Positions 7,706-20,933 of a stretch of DNA of 43,175 nucleotides are shown here, piece by piece (the first letter of the stretch is position 1; each line of letters starts with the position of its first letter). Position numbers and translations under genes: made by a program. Origin of the DNA: Desulfobacterales bacterium (lineage in GTDB: Bacteria; Desulfobacterota; Desulfobacteria; Desulfobacterales; Desulfobacteraceae); NCBI GenBank assembly GCA_022361395.1, contig JAKSAX010000101.1, positions 1 to 43,175 of the forward strand, read 5' to 3'. Below the pieces are notes generated by a model. That model ran no database searches and was not told the origin of the DNA. It saw nothing but the letters and a program-made list of their open reading frames with translations.

Positions 7706-8989
7706 TTATAGCAGTCCTTCCACACGTTTTACCGCGCAAAAGTCCCCGCACATGGTGCAGACCCCGTCTTCGGACGGCTGCGAACTCTCCTTGTAGGCCC
7801 TGGCCTTTTTGGGATCCAGGGAGGCGGCGAACTGGCCTTCCCAGTCCAGGGCCTTCCTGGCCCTGCTCATGGTCAGATCCTTGTCACCGGCTCCCGGAAT
7901 TCCCTTGGCCAGATCCCCTGCATGGGCGGCAATTTTGGATGCGATAATCCCCTCCTTGACATCATCCACAGAGGGCAGGCGCAGATGTTCGGCAGGCGTC
8001 ACATAGCAGAGGAAATCCGCACCGTGCATGGCTGCAAGGGCGCCCCCGATGGCAGAGGTGATATGATCATACCCAGGGGCAATGTCGGTGACCAGCGGCC
8101 CCAGCACGTAAAACGGGGCGTTGTGGCAGAGTTTTTTCTGGATTTTCATGTTCATCTCCACCTCGTGGAGGGGCACATGGCCCGGCCCTTCGATCATCAC
8201 CTGGACATTCCTGTCCCAGGCCCGTTTGGTCAGTTCGCCCAGGGTGATGAGCTCCTGGATCTGGGGGGCGTCCGTGCTGTCTTTGATGGCGCCCGGACGG
8301 AGTCCGTCACCCAGGCTGATACAAATATCGTACTTTTCGCAGATATCCAGCAGACGGTCAAAGTGCTCGTAAAAGGGATTTTCAGTACCTGTTTTTTTCA
8401 TCCATTCAAAGAGAATGGCGCCGCCGCGGCTGACGATCCCGCAGAGCCTGGGATTCTTCTCTATGGTCTTTGCAGCCTTAAGGTTCAGCCCGGCATGGAT
8501 GGTTACAAAATCAATCCCGTTTTTTCCATGGATTTCCACGGTTTCAAACCAGTCGTCAATGGTCAGCTCTTCGGTCGGTTTTCCCGTCCGGGTCAGGGTG
8601 TCGTAAATGGGCACACTGCCGATCATCACGGGAACCTCTGCCACCAGGCGTTTCCTGAACGCTTCGGTATCCCCTGACACACTCAGGTCCATGATGGCGT
8701 CTGCGTTGTACTCCAGGGCCAGTTTGGCCTTGTTCATCTCAGAATCAAAGGAGCAGACATCCCTGGACACCCCCAGGTTGACATTGATCTTGGTTTTCAA
8801 CCCGTGGCCGACACCCGCAGCCCTGATGCCGAAGTGGTTCTTATTGGCAGGGATGGCAATGGAGCCGTCTGCCACACGCGCCACAAGGTCTTCCCTTGAA
8901 ATGGATTCATTTTCAAGGACCTGTTCCATCTGGGGGGTGACGATGCCTTTTCTGGCCGCATCCATCTGGGTGGTGTATGTTTCAGTCAT
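7706..8989 (-). CDS. thiC: Phosphomethylpyrimidine synthase ThiC
   Basis: GIVSRGG, SLGDGLRPG, VMIEGPGHVP, GPLVTDIAPGYDH, C-terminal CTMCGDFCAVK cluster motif; last gene of thi operon. Confidence 0.95.
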   Translation of the reverse strand: MTETYTTQMDAARKGIVTPQMEQVLENESISREDLVARVADGSIAIPANKNHFGIRAAGVGHGLKTKINVNLGVSRDVCSFDSEMNKAKLALEYNADAIMDLSVSGDTEAFRKRLVAEVPVMIGSVPIYDTLTRTGKPTEELTIDDWFETVEIHGKNGIDFVTIHAGLNLKAAKTIEKNPRLCGIVSRGGAILFEWMKKTGTENPFYEHFDRLLDICEKYDICISLGDGLRPGAIKDSTDAPQIQELITLGELTKRAWDRNVQVMIEGPGHVPLHEVEMNMKIQKKLCHNAPFYVLGPLVTDIAPGYDHITSAIGGALAAMHGADFLCYVTPAEHLRLPSVDDVKEGIIASKIAAHAGDLAKGIPGAGDKDLTMSRARKALDWEGQFAASLDPKKARAYKESSQPSEDGVCTMCGDFCAVKRVEGLL

Positions 8990-12319: not shown

Positions 12320-12427
12320 AACACCTCCGGCAAATTTAAATACCCCGAACATTCAGGGTAAGGTAACCGGGGATGATCTGATGGAAACTACAGGCGGGAA
12401 TACTAAAAAAGACTCTCTATAACGCTA

Positions 12428-12528
12428 TACACTTTCCCTACGCCGGTATTAACCGTATCAGGTTCCAAGGGTTGAAGGCCTGCCTTCTCTCAGCAAAAAG
12501 CACCCCCAGTGAACTTGGAGGAGTGTAT
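12428..12528 (-). ncRNA. TPP (THI element) riboswitch
   Basis: Reverse complement reads GGGGGTGCTTTTTGCTGAGAGAAGGC...ACCCTTGGAACCTGATACGGTTAATACCGGCGTAGGGAAAG. Confidence 0.95.
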
Positions 12529-15269: not shown

Positions 15270-15344
15270 GATGTCCGAATAATCGGCCAATCCCCCTGGT
15301 TTGTAAAGACATTTTACAAAAATATTGACCTTGGGGCCGAACCG

Positions 15345-15515
15345 GTGTAATTTATCAGCCCATAATTTGTTGCGGAAATCCGGCCAACGGAACACGGTGA
15401 AATCCCGTGACGGTCCCGCCGCTGTAATCGGAAATATCTGATCTGCCATGCCACTGGTCACCCGGGAAGGTGCAGATTCAGGTCTAACGCCGTAAGTCAG
15501 AAGACGAGCCGGAGC
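15345..15515 (+). ncRNA. Cobalamin riboswitch (upstream of ThiC paralog/cobT)
   Basis: ACGGTGAAATCCCGTGACGGTCCCGCCGCTGTAATCGG, GCCACTGG, AAGTCAGAAGACGAGCC conserved blocks. Confidence 0.92.
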
Positions 15516-15628
15516 TTCCCTTAAGCTTTGTAAAACTTGATGGTAAAGGGTTTTGTAGGATGTAACGTCTTGCAGAGCCTTTTTCGGTTTTGCAGGGCAA
15601 GCTGATCTAGATCAATAGCGAGGAGACT

Positions 15629-16933
15629 ATGAAAACACAGATCGAATACGCCCGCGAGGGCAAACTCACCAGGGAAATGACCTTTGTCGCAGAATCAGAA
15701 GGCCTGTCAACAGACTTCATTATGGACAAGGTTGCCAGGGGCGAAATCGTCATCCCATGCAACACCAACCGGCCCAACCAGAAAATTGCCGGTATCGGTA
15801 CAGGACTGAGAACCAAGGTAAACGCCTCCATCGGGACCTCTTCCGATATCTGCGATGTGGATCTTGAAGTGGCCAAGGCCAAGGCTGCCGAAGAAGAGGG
15901 GGCAGACACCCTCATGGAGCTGTCTGCTGCCGGCAACATGGATAAAATCAGGCGTACCGTCCTGGCCAACACAGACCTTCCCGTTGGCAACGTTCCCCTG
16001 TACCAGGCATTCAAGGAGGTCATCCGCAAATACCAGAACCCTGCCAAACTGGATCCGGAATACCTGTTTGACCTGATCGAACAGCAGCTGGACGACGGGT
16101 TGAGCTTCATGGCCATCCACTGCGGTATTAACCAGTACACCATTGAACGCCTCAGGAAACAGGGATTCCGCTATGGCGGCCTGGCCTCAAAGGGCGGCAC
16201 ATATATGGTGGCCTGGATGGATATCAATAAAAAGGAAAACCCCCTTTACGAACAATTTGACAGGGTCTGCGCCCTGATGAAAAAATATGATGCCGTCTTT
16301 TCCCTGGGGAACGGCATCCGGGCAGGCGCCATCCACGACAGCCATGACCGGGCCCAGATGGCCGAGATGATCATTAACTGCGAACTGGCTGAAATCGGCC
16401 GGGACCTGGGCTGCCAGATGATGGTGGAAGGCCCCGGCCACGTCCCCCTGGATGAAATCGAAGGCAATATCATGCTGGAAAAACGGATGTCCGGCAATGC
16501 CCCCTATTATGTACTGGGTCCCATCCCCTGTGACACCGGTGCCGGATATGATCATATTACCGCCGCCATTGGTGCGGCCTCATCTGCCCGTTACGGCGCA
16601 GACCTGATCTGCTATATCACTCCGGCCGAACATCTGGCCCTGCCCTCAGTGGCAGATGTGCGTGAAGGCGTAAGAGCCACCCGCCTGGCTGCCAGAATCG
16701 GTGATATTTCCAAATATCCCGACCGCAGGGAGAACGAAAAACAGGCAGCCATGGCCAGGAGGGACATGCGCTGGGACGACCTTGAAAAATACCTGCTCTT
16801 CCCGGATGTGGCAAAATCCATCCGTGAGGAACGGGCACCGGAACAAAAAGAGACCTGCACCATGTGCGGGGATTTCTGTGCCATGAAAAAAGGCATGGAG
16901 ATATTTGAGAAAGATATAACAGACAAGAGGTAA
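15629..16933 (+). CDS. bzaF: ThiC-family radical SAM paralog, probable 5-hydroxybenzimidazole synthase (BzaF-like)
   Basis: ThiC fold and C-terminal CTMCGDFCAMK cluster, but active-site blocks differ from the genuine ThiC here (GGLASKGG, SLGNGIRAG, DTGAGYDH); B12 riboswitch upstream, cobT downstream. Confidence 0.82.
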   Translation: MKTQIEYAREGKLTREMTFVAESEGLSTDFIMDKVARGEIVIPCNTNRPNQKIAGIGTGLRTKVNASIGTSSDICDVDLEVAKAKAAEEEGADTLMELSAAGNMDKIRRTVLANTDLPVGNVPLYQAFKEVIRKYQNPAKLDPEYLFDLIEQQLDDGLSFMAIHCGINQYTIERLRKQGFRYGGLASKGGTYMVAWMDINKKENPLYEQFDRVCALMKKYDAVFSLGNGIRAGAIHDSHDRAQMAEMIINCELAEIGRDLGCQMMVEGPGHVPLDEIEGNIMLEKRMSGNAPYYVLGPIPCDTGAGYDHITAAIGAASSARYGADLICYITPAEHLALPSVADVREGVRATRLAARIGDISKYPDRRENEKQAAMARRDMRWDDLEKYLLFPDVAKSIREERAPEQKETCTMCGDFCAMKKGMEIFEKDITDKR

Positions 16934-16936
16934 GCT

Positions 16937-18001
16937 ATGTCACTGCTTGAACAGACCATAGGATCAATTAGGGAAACCCTGGACCAGGAAGTCCTGGCCG
17001 CAGCCAAGCAGCGCCTTGCCGACCAGGCCAAGCCTGCCGGCAGCCTCGGGATCATGGAAGGTATCGGCGCCCGCCTTGCCGCCATAAAAGGCACCATTGA
17101 CGTCCGCCTGACAAACAAGCGGATCGTTACCTGCGCCGGGGACCACGGTGTAACCGACGAAGGGGTCAGCCTGTTTCCGGCTGAAGTCACCCCCCAGATG
17201 GTGATGAACTTTGCCGGAGGCGGCGCCTCGGTAAATGTCATCGGCAACCATGCCGGCGCCGTTGTCAAGGCAGCCGACCTGGGAGTGAACCATGACTTCC
17301 CTGCCGACCTGCCCATCTTCCATAAAAAGGTCCGCCACGGTACGGGTAACTTCACCAAAGAACCGGCCATGACCCGGGAAGAGGCTGTCCGTTCCATTGA
17401 GGCCGGTATTGAGATCGTGGAAGAACTCCAGGCCGAAGCCCCTGTGGATCTGTTGGGCACCGGTGATATGGGGATCGGTAATACCACCCCTTCATCAGCT
17501 ATTATTGCGGCCTTTTCAGGCCTGCCCGTGGAAACCCTTACCGGCCGCGGCACCGGCATTGACGATGCCGCCCTGGCCAATAAGATCGCCGTCATCCGGA
17601 AAGGCCTTGACCTGCACAACCCCGATCCCAAGGATCCCATTGACGTCCTCTCAAAGGTCGGCGGCCTTGAAATCGGCGGCCTGGCAGGGCTTGTACTGGG
17701 AGCGGCAGCCCACGGCATCCCCGTGATCTGCGACGGCCTCATCTCCACGGCAGGGGCACTGATTGCCTGTGAGCTGGCTCCGGCAGCCAAGCAATACCTG
17801 TTTGCCAGCCACAAATCCGTTGAAATCGGCCATAAATACATGCACGACCGCCTGGGGCTCGATCCCCTTATTGACCTGAAGTTCCGCCTCGGCGAAGGCA
17901 CAGGCGCTGCCGTCTGCATGGAGCTTCTGGATCTTGCCACACGCATCCTGGCAGATATCAAAACCTTTGAAGAGGTCGGGGTATCCCAGGCAGACCAATA
18001 A
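16937..18001 (+). CDS. cobT: Nicotinate-nucleotide--dimethylbenzimidazole phosphoribosyltransferase
   Basis: QAKPAGSLGIMEGIG, CAGDHGVTDEGVSLFPAEVTPQMV, GDMGIGNTTPSSAI, GRGTGIDD, HKSVEIGH. Confidence 0.95.
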   Translation: MSLLEQTIGSIRETLDQEVLAAAKQRLADQAKPAGSLGIMEGIGARLAAIKGTIDVRLTNKRIVTCAGDHGVTDEGVSLFPAEVTPQMVMNFAGGGASVNVIGNHAGAVVKAADLGVNHDFPADLPIFHKKVRHGTGNFTKEPAMTREEAVRSIEAGIEIVEELQAEAPVDLLGTGDMGIGNTTPSSAIIAAFSGLPVETLTGRGTGIDDAALANKIAVIRKGLDLHNPDPKDPIDVLSKVGGLEIGGLAGLVLGAAAHGIPVICDGLISTAGALIACELAPAAKQYLFASHKSVEIGHKYMHDRLGLDPLIDLKFRLGEGTGAAVCMELLDLATRILADIKTFEEVGVSQADQ

Positions 18002-18235: not shown

Positions 18236-18958
18236 TTGATTATACCTAAAAAACCGATAACCGGACTGATCATACTCATGTCACTCATAAGTGCAGGCCA
18301 TTCAGGCGCAAAGGAGTCTGTTATCCTTCTCCACGGGCTTGCACGGACCAACCGGTCCATGGTGAAAATGGCTGCCTCACTAAAGGCCGAAGGGTTTCAC
18401 ACGGTCAACCAGGATTATCCGTCAACTGATTTTCCCATAGAGGTACTGGCTGAAAAAACCATTGAAAAGGCATTGAAAAAATGCCCGTCAGGCAACAGGA
18501 TCCACTTTGTCACCCATTCCCTGGGGGGAATTCTGGTGCGCCAGTACCTGAGCGGCCATACCATTGAACACCTGGGAAGGGTGGTGATGCTCGGCCCGCC
18601 GAACCAGGGGAGCCAGGTGGTGGATGCATTGAAAAACATGCCTGGTTTTAAGCTGCTGAACGGCCCTTCCGGAATGCAGCTTGGCACGGATGCCCAAAGC
18701 GTTCCCATCAGGCTCGGTCCGGCAGATTTTGAGGTGGGAATCATCGCAGGCAGCCGGAGCATCAACCTGATTTTGTCCACATTTTTACCGGGCCGGGATG
18801 ACGGCAAGGTCACCATAAAGAATACAAAACTGGAAGGGATGGCCGATCATATTACCCTGCCGGTCTCCCACCCTTTTATGATGAGAGATAAGACAGTGAT
18901 CCGCCAGGCCATCCGGTTTCTCAGGGACGGCAGGTTTGGCAGGGAAACCGATCATTAA
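18236..18958 (+). CDS. Exported alpha/beta-fold hydrolase (lipase-like)
   Basis: VILLHGLARTNRSM, FVTHSLGGILVRQYL nucleophile elbow, MLGPPNQGSQVVD; hydrophobic N-terminus. Start uncertain (TTG 18236 or ATG 18278). Confidence 0.78.
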   Translation: MIIPKKPITGLIILMSLISAGHSGAKESVILLHGLARTNRSMVKMAASLKAEGFHTVNQDYPSTDFPIEVLAEKTIEKALKKCPSGNRIHFVTHSLGGILVRQYLSGHTIEHLGRVVMLGPPNQGSQVVDALKNMPGFKLLNGPSGMQLGTDAQSVPIRLGPADFEVGIIAGSRSINLILSTFLPGRDDGKVTIKNTKLEGMADHITLPVSHPFMMRDKTVIRQAIRFLRDGRFGRETDH

Positions 18959-19039: not shown

Positions 19040-19200
19040 TGCAGTGAACCTGTTTTCCTTAAGGGAACCCGGTTAAAATCCGGGGCGGACCCGCCGCTGT
19101 GAATGGGGACGAAAACCGCAGAGGCCACTGTGTTGTAAGTAAACCAGCGAAACAGCACGGGAAGGCGCGGTGATTAGAAGGATCCACAAGCCAGAATATC
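19040..19200 (+). ncRNA. Cobalamin riboswitch (upstream of symporter)
   Basis: CTTAAGGGAACCCGGTTAAAATCCGGGGCGGACCCGCCGCTGTGAATGGGGACG, GCCACTGTG, GGGAAGGCGCGG, AAGCCAGAATA. Confidence 0.92.
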
Positions 19201-19217
19201 TTAGGGAAAGCGTTAAT

Positions 19218-19314
19218 GGGTCGCGAAAGAATTAGTTCACATTCTGTTTGCAAAATACCCAAGGTTTTAAGGGTTTTTAAAACAGACTAGGTGAAGTTAT
19301 TTTTGCGCGATCCC
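19218..19314. repeat. Foldback MITE-like repeat, copy 2 (~97 bp)
   Basis: GGGTCGCGAAAGAATTAGTTCAC...GTGAAGTTATTTTTGCGCGATCCC; same element as 1658-1756. Confidence 0.8.
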
Positions 19315-19360
19315 TAAATAAACGTCTCGGAGAGACGGTAAATCCCCGGGCTGATAAAGT

Positions 19361-19386
19361 GCCGGCTCGCGGAGCGGCCGGTTTTT
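19361..19386 (+). terminator. Candidate riboswitch expression-platform hairpin with U tract
   Basis: GCCGGCTCGCGGAGCGGCCGGTTTTT just upstream of the symporter RBS/ATG. Confidence 0.5.
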
Positions 19387-19397
19387 GGGAGTTTATC

Positions 19398-20933
19398 ATG
19401 GCATCATATCACCTGTTTCTGCTTGTCCTGGCTGTTTATATTTCCTTCCTGGTCCTAACCGGGCTTTACTTCAGTAAAAAACAAAAATCCCAGACCGACT
19501 TCTGGCTGGCGGGAAAATCCGCAGGCTTTTTATCCGTCGGGTTTTCCGCTGCCGCCTCCTGGCTGACGGCAGGGGCGCTTCTGGCGGTTATCGGTTTTTA
19601 TATGCTTTTAGGCATGGGATCGGTGTGGGGATTTGTGGCCCCCAATATCCTGGCGCTCTTTATCATTGCCTTTTTTGTGAAAAAGATAAAATCCCTGCCG
19701 GCCATTACCCAGCCGGAACTCCTTGAAATGAGATACGGCAGTTTTTTAAGGCTGCCCGTGGCCGTCATCATCACCGTGGTCATGATCCTGTTTGCCGTTG
19801 CCGATATCAAGGGGTTTGCCATGGTCCTTGAAATATTTTACGGGATCAGCCCGACCTGGTCCGCTCTGATCGTCGGGCTTGCCGTTGCCGTATATGTCAC
19901 CCTTGGCGGCCTGTCCGCCGTCATTGCCACGGATATGATTCAGTTTATCTGCCTCTCCCTTTTTATCCTGATCATGGCCGCCGTTGTCACATCCGGAGGG
20001 GGGAGTGCCGCAGGGCTTTCCCTTGGGGAGATGGTAGGGGGCACACCTGAGGGATGGTGGAATCCGGCATCCATCGGAATGCCCATGGTATTGATCTTTG
20101 TACTGGCCATTATTCCCGGATGGATCACGGAGCAGGATCCCTGGCAACGGGTGTGGGCGGCAAAGGATGAACGCTCCGCCCGGAACGGGATGTTTCTGGG
20201 ATCTTTCCTGGTGGCTGTGGTTTTCGGTGCCTGCGCCCTGATCGCCCTGGGCCTGAACAACATCTATCCTGAAATTGCAGAGGCCGGATTCCCCATGGGA
20301 ATGGCCAAGGCAGAACCGGCACTTCTGACCTTTATCATGGAGAGCCGGTTTTCAGATATCAGCCTGGCCCTGTGCGCCGTCGCCCTTGCCACGGCCGCCA
20401 TGTCCTGTACAGATACCTTTGCCGCCTCCGGTGCCTCCTGCATTTCAAGGGATATCTTCCAGCGGTATATTTACAAAGATGCCGGTATGAAGCAGGTGCG
20501 CCTGGTTAACCGGCTCAGCGTTCTTTTAATCGTAGCCCTGGCCACCCTGGGCTCTTTTTACATCAACAGCATCATAGATGCCATCCACATTGCCACCTTT
20601 ATTGCCTCTGCATCTTATTTTTTCGCCCTCATGGGCGGCCTGTACTGGAAACGGGCCACAGGCCCGGGAGCTGTTGCCTCACTCTGGACAGGATTCATCA
20701 TCCAGACCGGCCTGGTCATATTTGACCTGGCCAAAACAGCGCCCATGGCACCGCCTTATCTTGAAAGCATCCATCCCGTATTCATGGGCCATGGTGTTAT
20801 TATTGCCATGCTCATCTCCGGTATTGTATTTGTAGGTGTTTCTCTGGCCACGAAACCTTGCGAAAAAGAGCAGCTGGATATCTTTTTTAAAAACGGGAAT
20901 GTGGAAACAACCGGTCCTGCAACGGAAAGATAA
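19398..20933 (+). CDS. Sodium:solute symporter (SSS) family protein
   Basis: FWLAGKSAGFLSVGFSAAASWLTAG, TLGGLSAVIATDMIQF, TEQDPWQRVWAAKDERSAR; multi-TM. Start set to ATG 19398 (GGGAG RBS) rather than GTG 19359. Confidence 0.88.
   Translation: MASYHLFLLVLAVYISFLVLTGLYFSKKQKSQTDFWLAGKSAGFLSVGFSAAASWLTAGALLAVIGFYMLLGMGSVWGFVAPNILALFIIAFFVKKIKSLPAITQPELLEMRYGSFLRLPVAVIITVVMILFAVADIKGFAMVLEIFYGISPTWSALIVGLAVAVYVTLGGLSAVIATDMIQFICLSLFILIMAAVVTSGGGSAAGLSLGEMVGGTPEGWWNPASIGMPMVLIFVLAIIPGWITEQDPWQRVWAAKDERSARNGMFLGSFLVAVVFGACALIALGLNNIYPEIAEAGFPMGMAKAEPALLTFIMESRFSDISLALCAVALATAAMSCTDTFAASGASCISRDIFQRYIYKDAGMKQVRLVNRLSVLLIVALATLGSFYINSIIDAIHIATFIASASYFFALMGGLYWKRATGPGAVASLWTGFIIQTGLVIFDLAKTAPMAPPYLESIHPVFMGHGVIIAMLISGIVFVGVSLATKPCEKEQLDIFFKNGNVETTGPATER

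Follow-up and report, generated by a model that had tools for sequence, protein, structure and literature searches.

What a sodium:solute symporter (SSS) carries when its gene stands behind a cobalamin riboswitch is the question raised by a locus of a Desulfobacterales bacterium (GCA_022361395.1, contig JAKSAX010000101.1, positions 1 to 43,175, forward strand); this whole stretch of 43,175 nt is called the window here. An earlier note on this DNA had placed a cobalamin aptamer ahead of an SSS-family gene, and both calls are borne out by matches to RF00174 (80.4 bits) and PF00474 (98 bits).

Gene layout and the symporter protein

The symporter gene (19398-20933, + strand) encodes 511 aa and is a predicted importer of a benzimidazole, or lower-ligand base. 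Its start is most likely the ATG at 19398 rather than the GTG at 19359, since GGGAG is present at 19387-19391 and all orthologs align from that ATG. The gene lies downstream of a bzaF-cobT unit, in which a second RF00174 riboswitch (15326-15527, +) precedes a bzaF-like ThiC paralog, the candidate 5-hydroxybenzimidazole synthase (15629-16933, +), and cobT, the lower-ligand base phosphoribosyltransferase (16937-18001, +; TIGR03160 at 420.7 bits, cut-off 319.3). The symporter had been described as adjacent to this unit; it is adjacent but not contiguous, as one lipase-like ORF (18236-18958) stands between cobT and the symporter leader. The identity of the ThiC-like gene of the unit as ThiC itself was rejected because the genome has a separate ThiC (7724-8971), and the two proteins, 42% identical, fall into different clades of a ThiC-paralog tree. 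The bzaF-like protein groups with all other BzaF-like proteins and the protein from 7724-8971 groups with ThiC. A TPP riboswitch (12417-12517, - strand, 73.6 bits) is found close to the thiamin gene cluster.

In the profile search, the PF00474 match covers residues 35-432 with a cut-off of 22.8. The symporter scores too low for each of the substrate-specific models and far too low for the PanF, PutP, ActP, and MctC equivalogs, with 68 of the 328 needed for PanF and 75.5 of the 515.5 needed for PutP. Thus, no subfamily of known substrate fits it, and the outcome that the earlier note named as refuting its reading, membership of one with an established unrelated substrate, did not arise. The AF2 model (38-row alignment; pLDDT 87, pTM 0.86) has the LeuT-type SSS fold, and its best PDB matches are SGLT1, SiaT, SGLT2, and CHT1, with E about 1e-14 and TM 0.7-0.8 for the SGLT1 and SiaT structures. 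The protein has its own conserved motifs, GWITEQDPWQ and MS[CSN]xDTF. Residues 335-337 are MSC, with Cys where SSS proteins usually have Ser/Thr, and presumably align with the usual Na2-site MSS/MST of the family. The reading frame is open in all carriers. The orthologs at L027 and L054 and those of archaea are ~640 aa long, and their C-terminal extension of ~130 aa is lost in the clade of the window.

Cobalamin aptamer, leader element, and insertion

The aptamer of the symporter leader (19062-19201, +) exceeds the RF00174 gathering score of 31.5 with an E value of 2.3e-18 in the covariance model search. It aligns to model positions 45-169 of 189 only, with positions 1-44 and 170-189 and hence the P1/P2 ends unmatched; the core alignment is beyond doubt. 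Of the 16 bacterial orthologs whose upstream DNA could be read, 14 have an aptamer immediately ahead of the symporter (the window, G017, G040, G057-G060, G080-G082, Desulforhopalus, Desulfogranum, Desulfosediminicola, and Desulfopila), and outside Desulfoluna all 14 testable Desulfobacterota orthologs do. RF00174 is absent upstream of both Desulfoluna orthologs examined and from all four archaeal symporter loci tested. The aptamer-free Desulfoluna genes (L030, L086) are located directly behind an NSS-family transporter gene, with which they may form an operon. Other RF00174 sites of the window genome precede BtuB-, BtuF-, BtuC-like, CbiK-like, and CobO genes.

A 29-nt element, CTCGGAGAGACGGTAAATCCCCGGGCTGA or a near match to it, lies behind the aptamer and ahead of the start codon in every aptamer-bearing symporter leader, and bzaC, some bzaF, and SSS leaders share it. 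In the window it occupies 19326-19354 (+). Its 3' part is one hairpin arm of the GGGCTGA/TCGGCTC type. A scan of the family with the 18-nt core, allowing at most one mismatch, gave 26 matches versus 3 for the reversed pattern used as control. Matches in leaders behind an aptamer are all ahead of the symporter, bzaC, or bzaF; one aptamer-less copy precedes a decayed cobT (G075, L214), and the remaining family matches are scattered one-mismatch ones. With a weight matrix of the element, symporter and bzaC leaders reach 24-50 bits, whereas the cbiK, btuF, btuB, btuC, and cobO leaders of the window genome stay below 0, as does the bzaF leader of the window itself. A longer pattern of the element was not found in 394 other genomes of the phylum, and no Rfam family matches the element. 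Further sites are located at L149 2835(+), L150 10375(-), L172 9097(-), and L214 1501.

The predicted expression platform (19346-19391, +) consists of hairpins adjoining the GGGAG ribosome-binding site. A terminator-type platform is likely in the symporter leaders, because the 3' half of the element forms a hairpin and a T-run lies behind it in several orthologs. This terminator-like character is weaker in the window, where the fold has z = 0.02, so that folding alone is no evidence for a platform. The btuB, btuF, and cbiK cobalamin leaders of the window genome (L001-L004) share another conserved platform of the GTGGACAAGG type, which suggests that platform types follow gene function.

The near-invariant element could belong to the expression platform or act as a second sensor. 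In the latter case, the leader would hold tandem sensors, the cobalamin aptamer and an undescribed RNA element sensing the lower-ligand base or a pathway intermediate, so that the base and the finished cofactor would both govern a benzimidazole importer derived from archaea; we regard this arrangement as quite improbable. The element alignment has no two-sided covariation and its changes are one-sided only. A standalone second riboswitch was rejected, since the sole aptamer-less copy is probably a remnant. An L5-L13 kissing loop was also rejected: the L5 loop GGACCC, compared with the element by eye, pairs over at most 3 bp, and one base varies.

The window leader is interrupted by a MITE-like insertion (19218-19314, +) between aptamer and expression platform. 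This repeat of 97 bp is bounded by terminal inverted repeats (GGGTCGCG...CGCGATCCC) and folds into a near-complete hairpin; the genome has at least 40 copies at 91-100% identity, and orthologous symporter leaders lack it. The 29-nt element follows the aptamer by 124 nt in the window versus 0-20 nt in other leaders; without the insertion the distance is 27 nt. In this position, the MITE may impair switching in the window genome. Another copy sits between two divergent RF00174 sites (G000:C119:771-866), and an Rfam match to MIR6438 at 19227-19304 was dismissed as chance similarity to the MITE hairpin.

Operons, co-distribution, and origin

An operon that starts with the symporter gene and continues on the same strand with a BzaC-like gene is present in 10 genomes of 5 genera (G037, G040, G057, G058, G059, G060, G080, G081, G082, and Desulfogranum japonicum). 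A run of three genes, BzaD-like and BzaE-like ones among them, was read in 7 of these, and bzaE lies some kilobases further on in G057, G059, and G060. E. limosum and A. woodii have the same bzaC-bzaD-bzaE order (PMC8123684). The genes are separated by short gaps, with ~40 bp between symporter and bzaC in L021. The BzaD-like protein (449 aa) scores 424.4 bits with TIGR04385, its best family by far (E 6e-127), at a cut-off of 450. The BzaC-like protein contains Methyltransf_2 and DUF2284; at L021 (7602-9137) and in its relatives, it is an O-methyltransferase fused to the cysteine-rich DUF2284 metal-binding domain. The BzaE-like protein is a second B12-binding radical SAM protein. BzaC, BzaE, and BzaF were assigned by domain content, gene order, and the ThiC-paralog tree; none of them matched a curated NCBIfam model, and BzaF and ThiC are not told apart by the curated models. 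G049 and G056 have bzaCDE but no symporter, and in both the riboswitch is directly ahead of bzaC. In several carriers the symporter is distant from bza genes.

Orthologs were collected from 86 family genomes, 395 phylum genomes, and the GTDB species set, which yielded 11 carriers in the family and 70 loci in the species set; the 395 phylum genomes contain no ortholog at E <1e-100 except that of the window genome. Among the 86 family genomes, bzaE is present in 20 and bzaF in 41, and one or the other is found in 11 of 11 carriers versus 33 of 75 non-carriers. Symporter and bzaE are associated with a Fisher p of 1.5e-5, in a test that takes no account of shared ancestry. Two carriers, the window genome and G017, have bzaF and lack bzaE. 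Beyond the family, each of the six named bacterial carriers has bzaF (73-83% identity), and 5 of them lack bzaE, which is present in Desulfogranum only. G058 (99% complete) combines the symporter and bzaCDE with no detectable bzaF, and its sole ThiC-family protein groups with ThiC; similarly, G037 (90% complete) has the symporter and bzaCDE, and bzaF was not found. Taken together, these gene sets leave 5-hydroxybenzimidazole (5-OHBza) as the one compound that the carriers' predicted pathways share, either made through bzaF or needed as BzaC substrate, and the gene set of G058 is as expected if this compound is the cargo. The earlier note had linked the B12-controlled symporter to corrinoid or lower-ligand acquisition, and it is the lower-ligand half that gains support, from the 14 of 16 aptamers, the bza operons, the co-distribution, and the shared leader element.

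In a tree of 70 proteins, the 16 bacterial symporters are one clade (100/97) within Methanosarcinaceae, a family with 5-hydroxybenzimidazole in its cobamide; the clade is placed beside Methanosarcina (87/91), and Desulfoluna branches first. The simplest history would comprise a single transfer from a methanogen, by which bacteria apparently gained the symporter, its recruitment behind a bza leader after the Desulfoluna split, and then its dispersal through Desulfobacteraceae, Desulfobulbaceae, and Desulfocapsaceae. Of 200 genomes from the class of Methanosarcina, 157 have the symporter and 156 a BzaF-like ThiC paralog. This archaeal ThiC-like group A is likely BzaF; a firm call was withheld, as its SH-aLRT is only 94% and the curated models do not split BzaF and ThiC. 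Three Methanosarcinales genomes (G489, G484, G488) have three ThiC-family paralogs each, grouping with BzaF, grouping with ThiC, and highly divergent (L224, L226, L228). The archaeal neighbours of the symporter comprise mtr, a tungstate transporter, and methionine synthase, none of which names a cargo. In Methanosarcina, the symporter gene is 1.7 kb from mtrEDCBA, and MtrA of M. mazei holds a 5-hydroxybenzimidazolyl cobamide (PMC12774963). In Methanolobus and Methanomethylovorans (L045, L048-L053 and similar), the genes for an unannotated 104-aa protein and a methionine synthase (PRK06052) come after the symporter gene on its strand. An archaeal AP_endonuc_2 neighbour was rejected as CbiR at 43 bits, the cut-off being 105.

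Candidate cargoes and known systems

The reading that we prefer, and to which we give an even chance, is that this SSS protein uses cation-coupled transport to import or recapture a benzimidazole lower-ligand base and that its expression is repressed by cobamide. Here we infer the repression by cobamide, the direction of transport, the coupling ion, and the cargo, and the most likely base is 5-OHBza. At low cobamide, the leader would be read through and the importer made together with the lower-ligand enzymes, so that the base could be brought into the cell. In the window type, CobT would attach the imported base directly; in the operon type, BzaC/D/E would first methylate or convert it towards 5,6-dimethylbenzimidazole (DMB). 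When cobamide is plentiful, it would bind the aptamer, and the expression platform would stop expression. A dedicated carrier may not be needed for the entry of some free bases. Free benzimidazoles occur in many environments (PMC4230183).

Among the rival explanations, the one that survives best, although it is unlikely, is that the cargo is unrelated and that the symporter landed behind a bza leader by chance after the archaeal transfer. The wide occurrence of archaeal orthologs (157/200 genomes) without bza operon context, the lack of an aptamer in Desulfoluna, and the MITE in the window leader are in line with such recruitment; however, the pair of leader and symporter is kept across Desulfobacteraceae, Desulfobulbaceae, and Desulfocapsaceae with the frame open in all carriers. 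Next in rank and also unlikely is methionine or another B12-sparing nutrient, the symporter being made when B12-dependent methionine synthesis fails. B12 riboswitches are known to control B12-sparing genes such as NrdDG in delta-proteobacteria (PMC545781), the orthologs of Methanolobus and relatives adjoin methionine synthase, and the NSS transporter ahead of the Desulfoluna symporter belongs to a family that includes amino-acid carriers, but with this cargo there is no explanation for the bzaCDE operons, for a leader in common with bza genes, or for the finding of the symporter in bza-bearing genomes only.

Ranking below these, and improbable, is the import of α-ribazole, the base with its ribose, or of a similar activated lower ligand, as with the ECF component CblT in Firmicutes; α-ribazole and methionine are the main rival cargoes. 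Salvage by CblT/CblS is a known route of lower-ligand uptake (PMC6461909; PMC8123684), and a nucleoside-sized cargo suits an SSS protein. On the other hand, the operon partners BzaC/D/E are reported in benzimidazole biosynthesis, CobT activates the free base, and the kinase CblS is not beside the symporter at any inspected locus. SSS proteins are carriers of small solutes. A corrinoid (cobinamide) or cobalt is thus very improbable as cargo despite the B12-riboswitch control and the peptide/nickel-type ABC transporter that follows the Desulfopila symporter (L054), as the BtuB-, BtuF-, and BtuC-like proteins of the genome's own B12 regulon, under other riboswitches, give intact corrinoids other routes of entry.

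Cobamide-dependent microbes share lower-ligand bases. If the symporter is a 5-OHBza importer, it would let sulfate reducers and methanogens that salvage lower ligands be recognised by a marker gene, would explain how genomes like G058, with bzaCDE and without bzaF, could make DMB, and would offer a tool to steer which cobamide anaerobic communities make. In the literature searched, no dedicated transporter for free benzimidazole bases was found, and the α-ribazole transporter CblT is the nearest; the symporter is a strong candidate for this missing role.

The symporter shares profile and fold with the SSS family (PF00474; TC 2.A.21), whose members include PanF, PutP, vSGLT, SiaT, and CHT1. In contrast to these, it stays below all substrate-specific cut-offs and has motifs of its own. 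CblT is controlled by a B12 riboswitch. Its fold and energy source are unrelated to those of the symporter, which is linked to bzaF/bzaCDE, whereas CblT is linked to cblS, and the predicted cargo of the symporter is the free base. No ECF S-component match was found in the symporter, where only PF00474 matched and the model has the SSS fold. The likeness to CblT and CblS consists in the predicted role in lower-ligand salvage (PMC6461909, PMC8123684). The anaerobic benzimidazole pathway (bzaABCDE/bzaF) of E. limosum, M. thermoacetica, and G. sulfurreducens has the same bzaF-cobT unit and bzaC-D-E order, and its operons are described without a transporter gene (PMC8123684). In the operons found here, the SSS symporter comes first and bzaF is at a separate locus. 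Work by Rodionov from 2002 reportedly presents ThiV, an SSS-type protein under THI elements, as a candidate transporter of a thiamin precursor. By that description, ThiV and the symporter are both SSS proteins with a vitamin riboswitch and a heterocyclic base as proposed cargo, and the vitamin differs. The transporter family is already known; what is new here is the predicted cargo and the regulatory setting.
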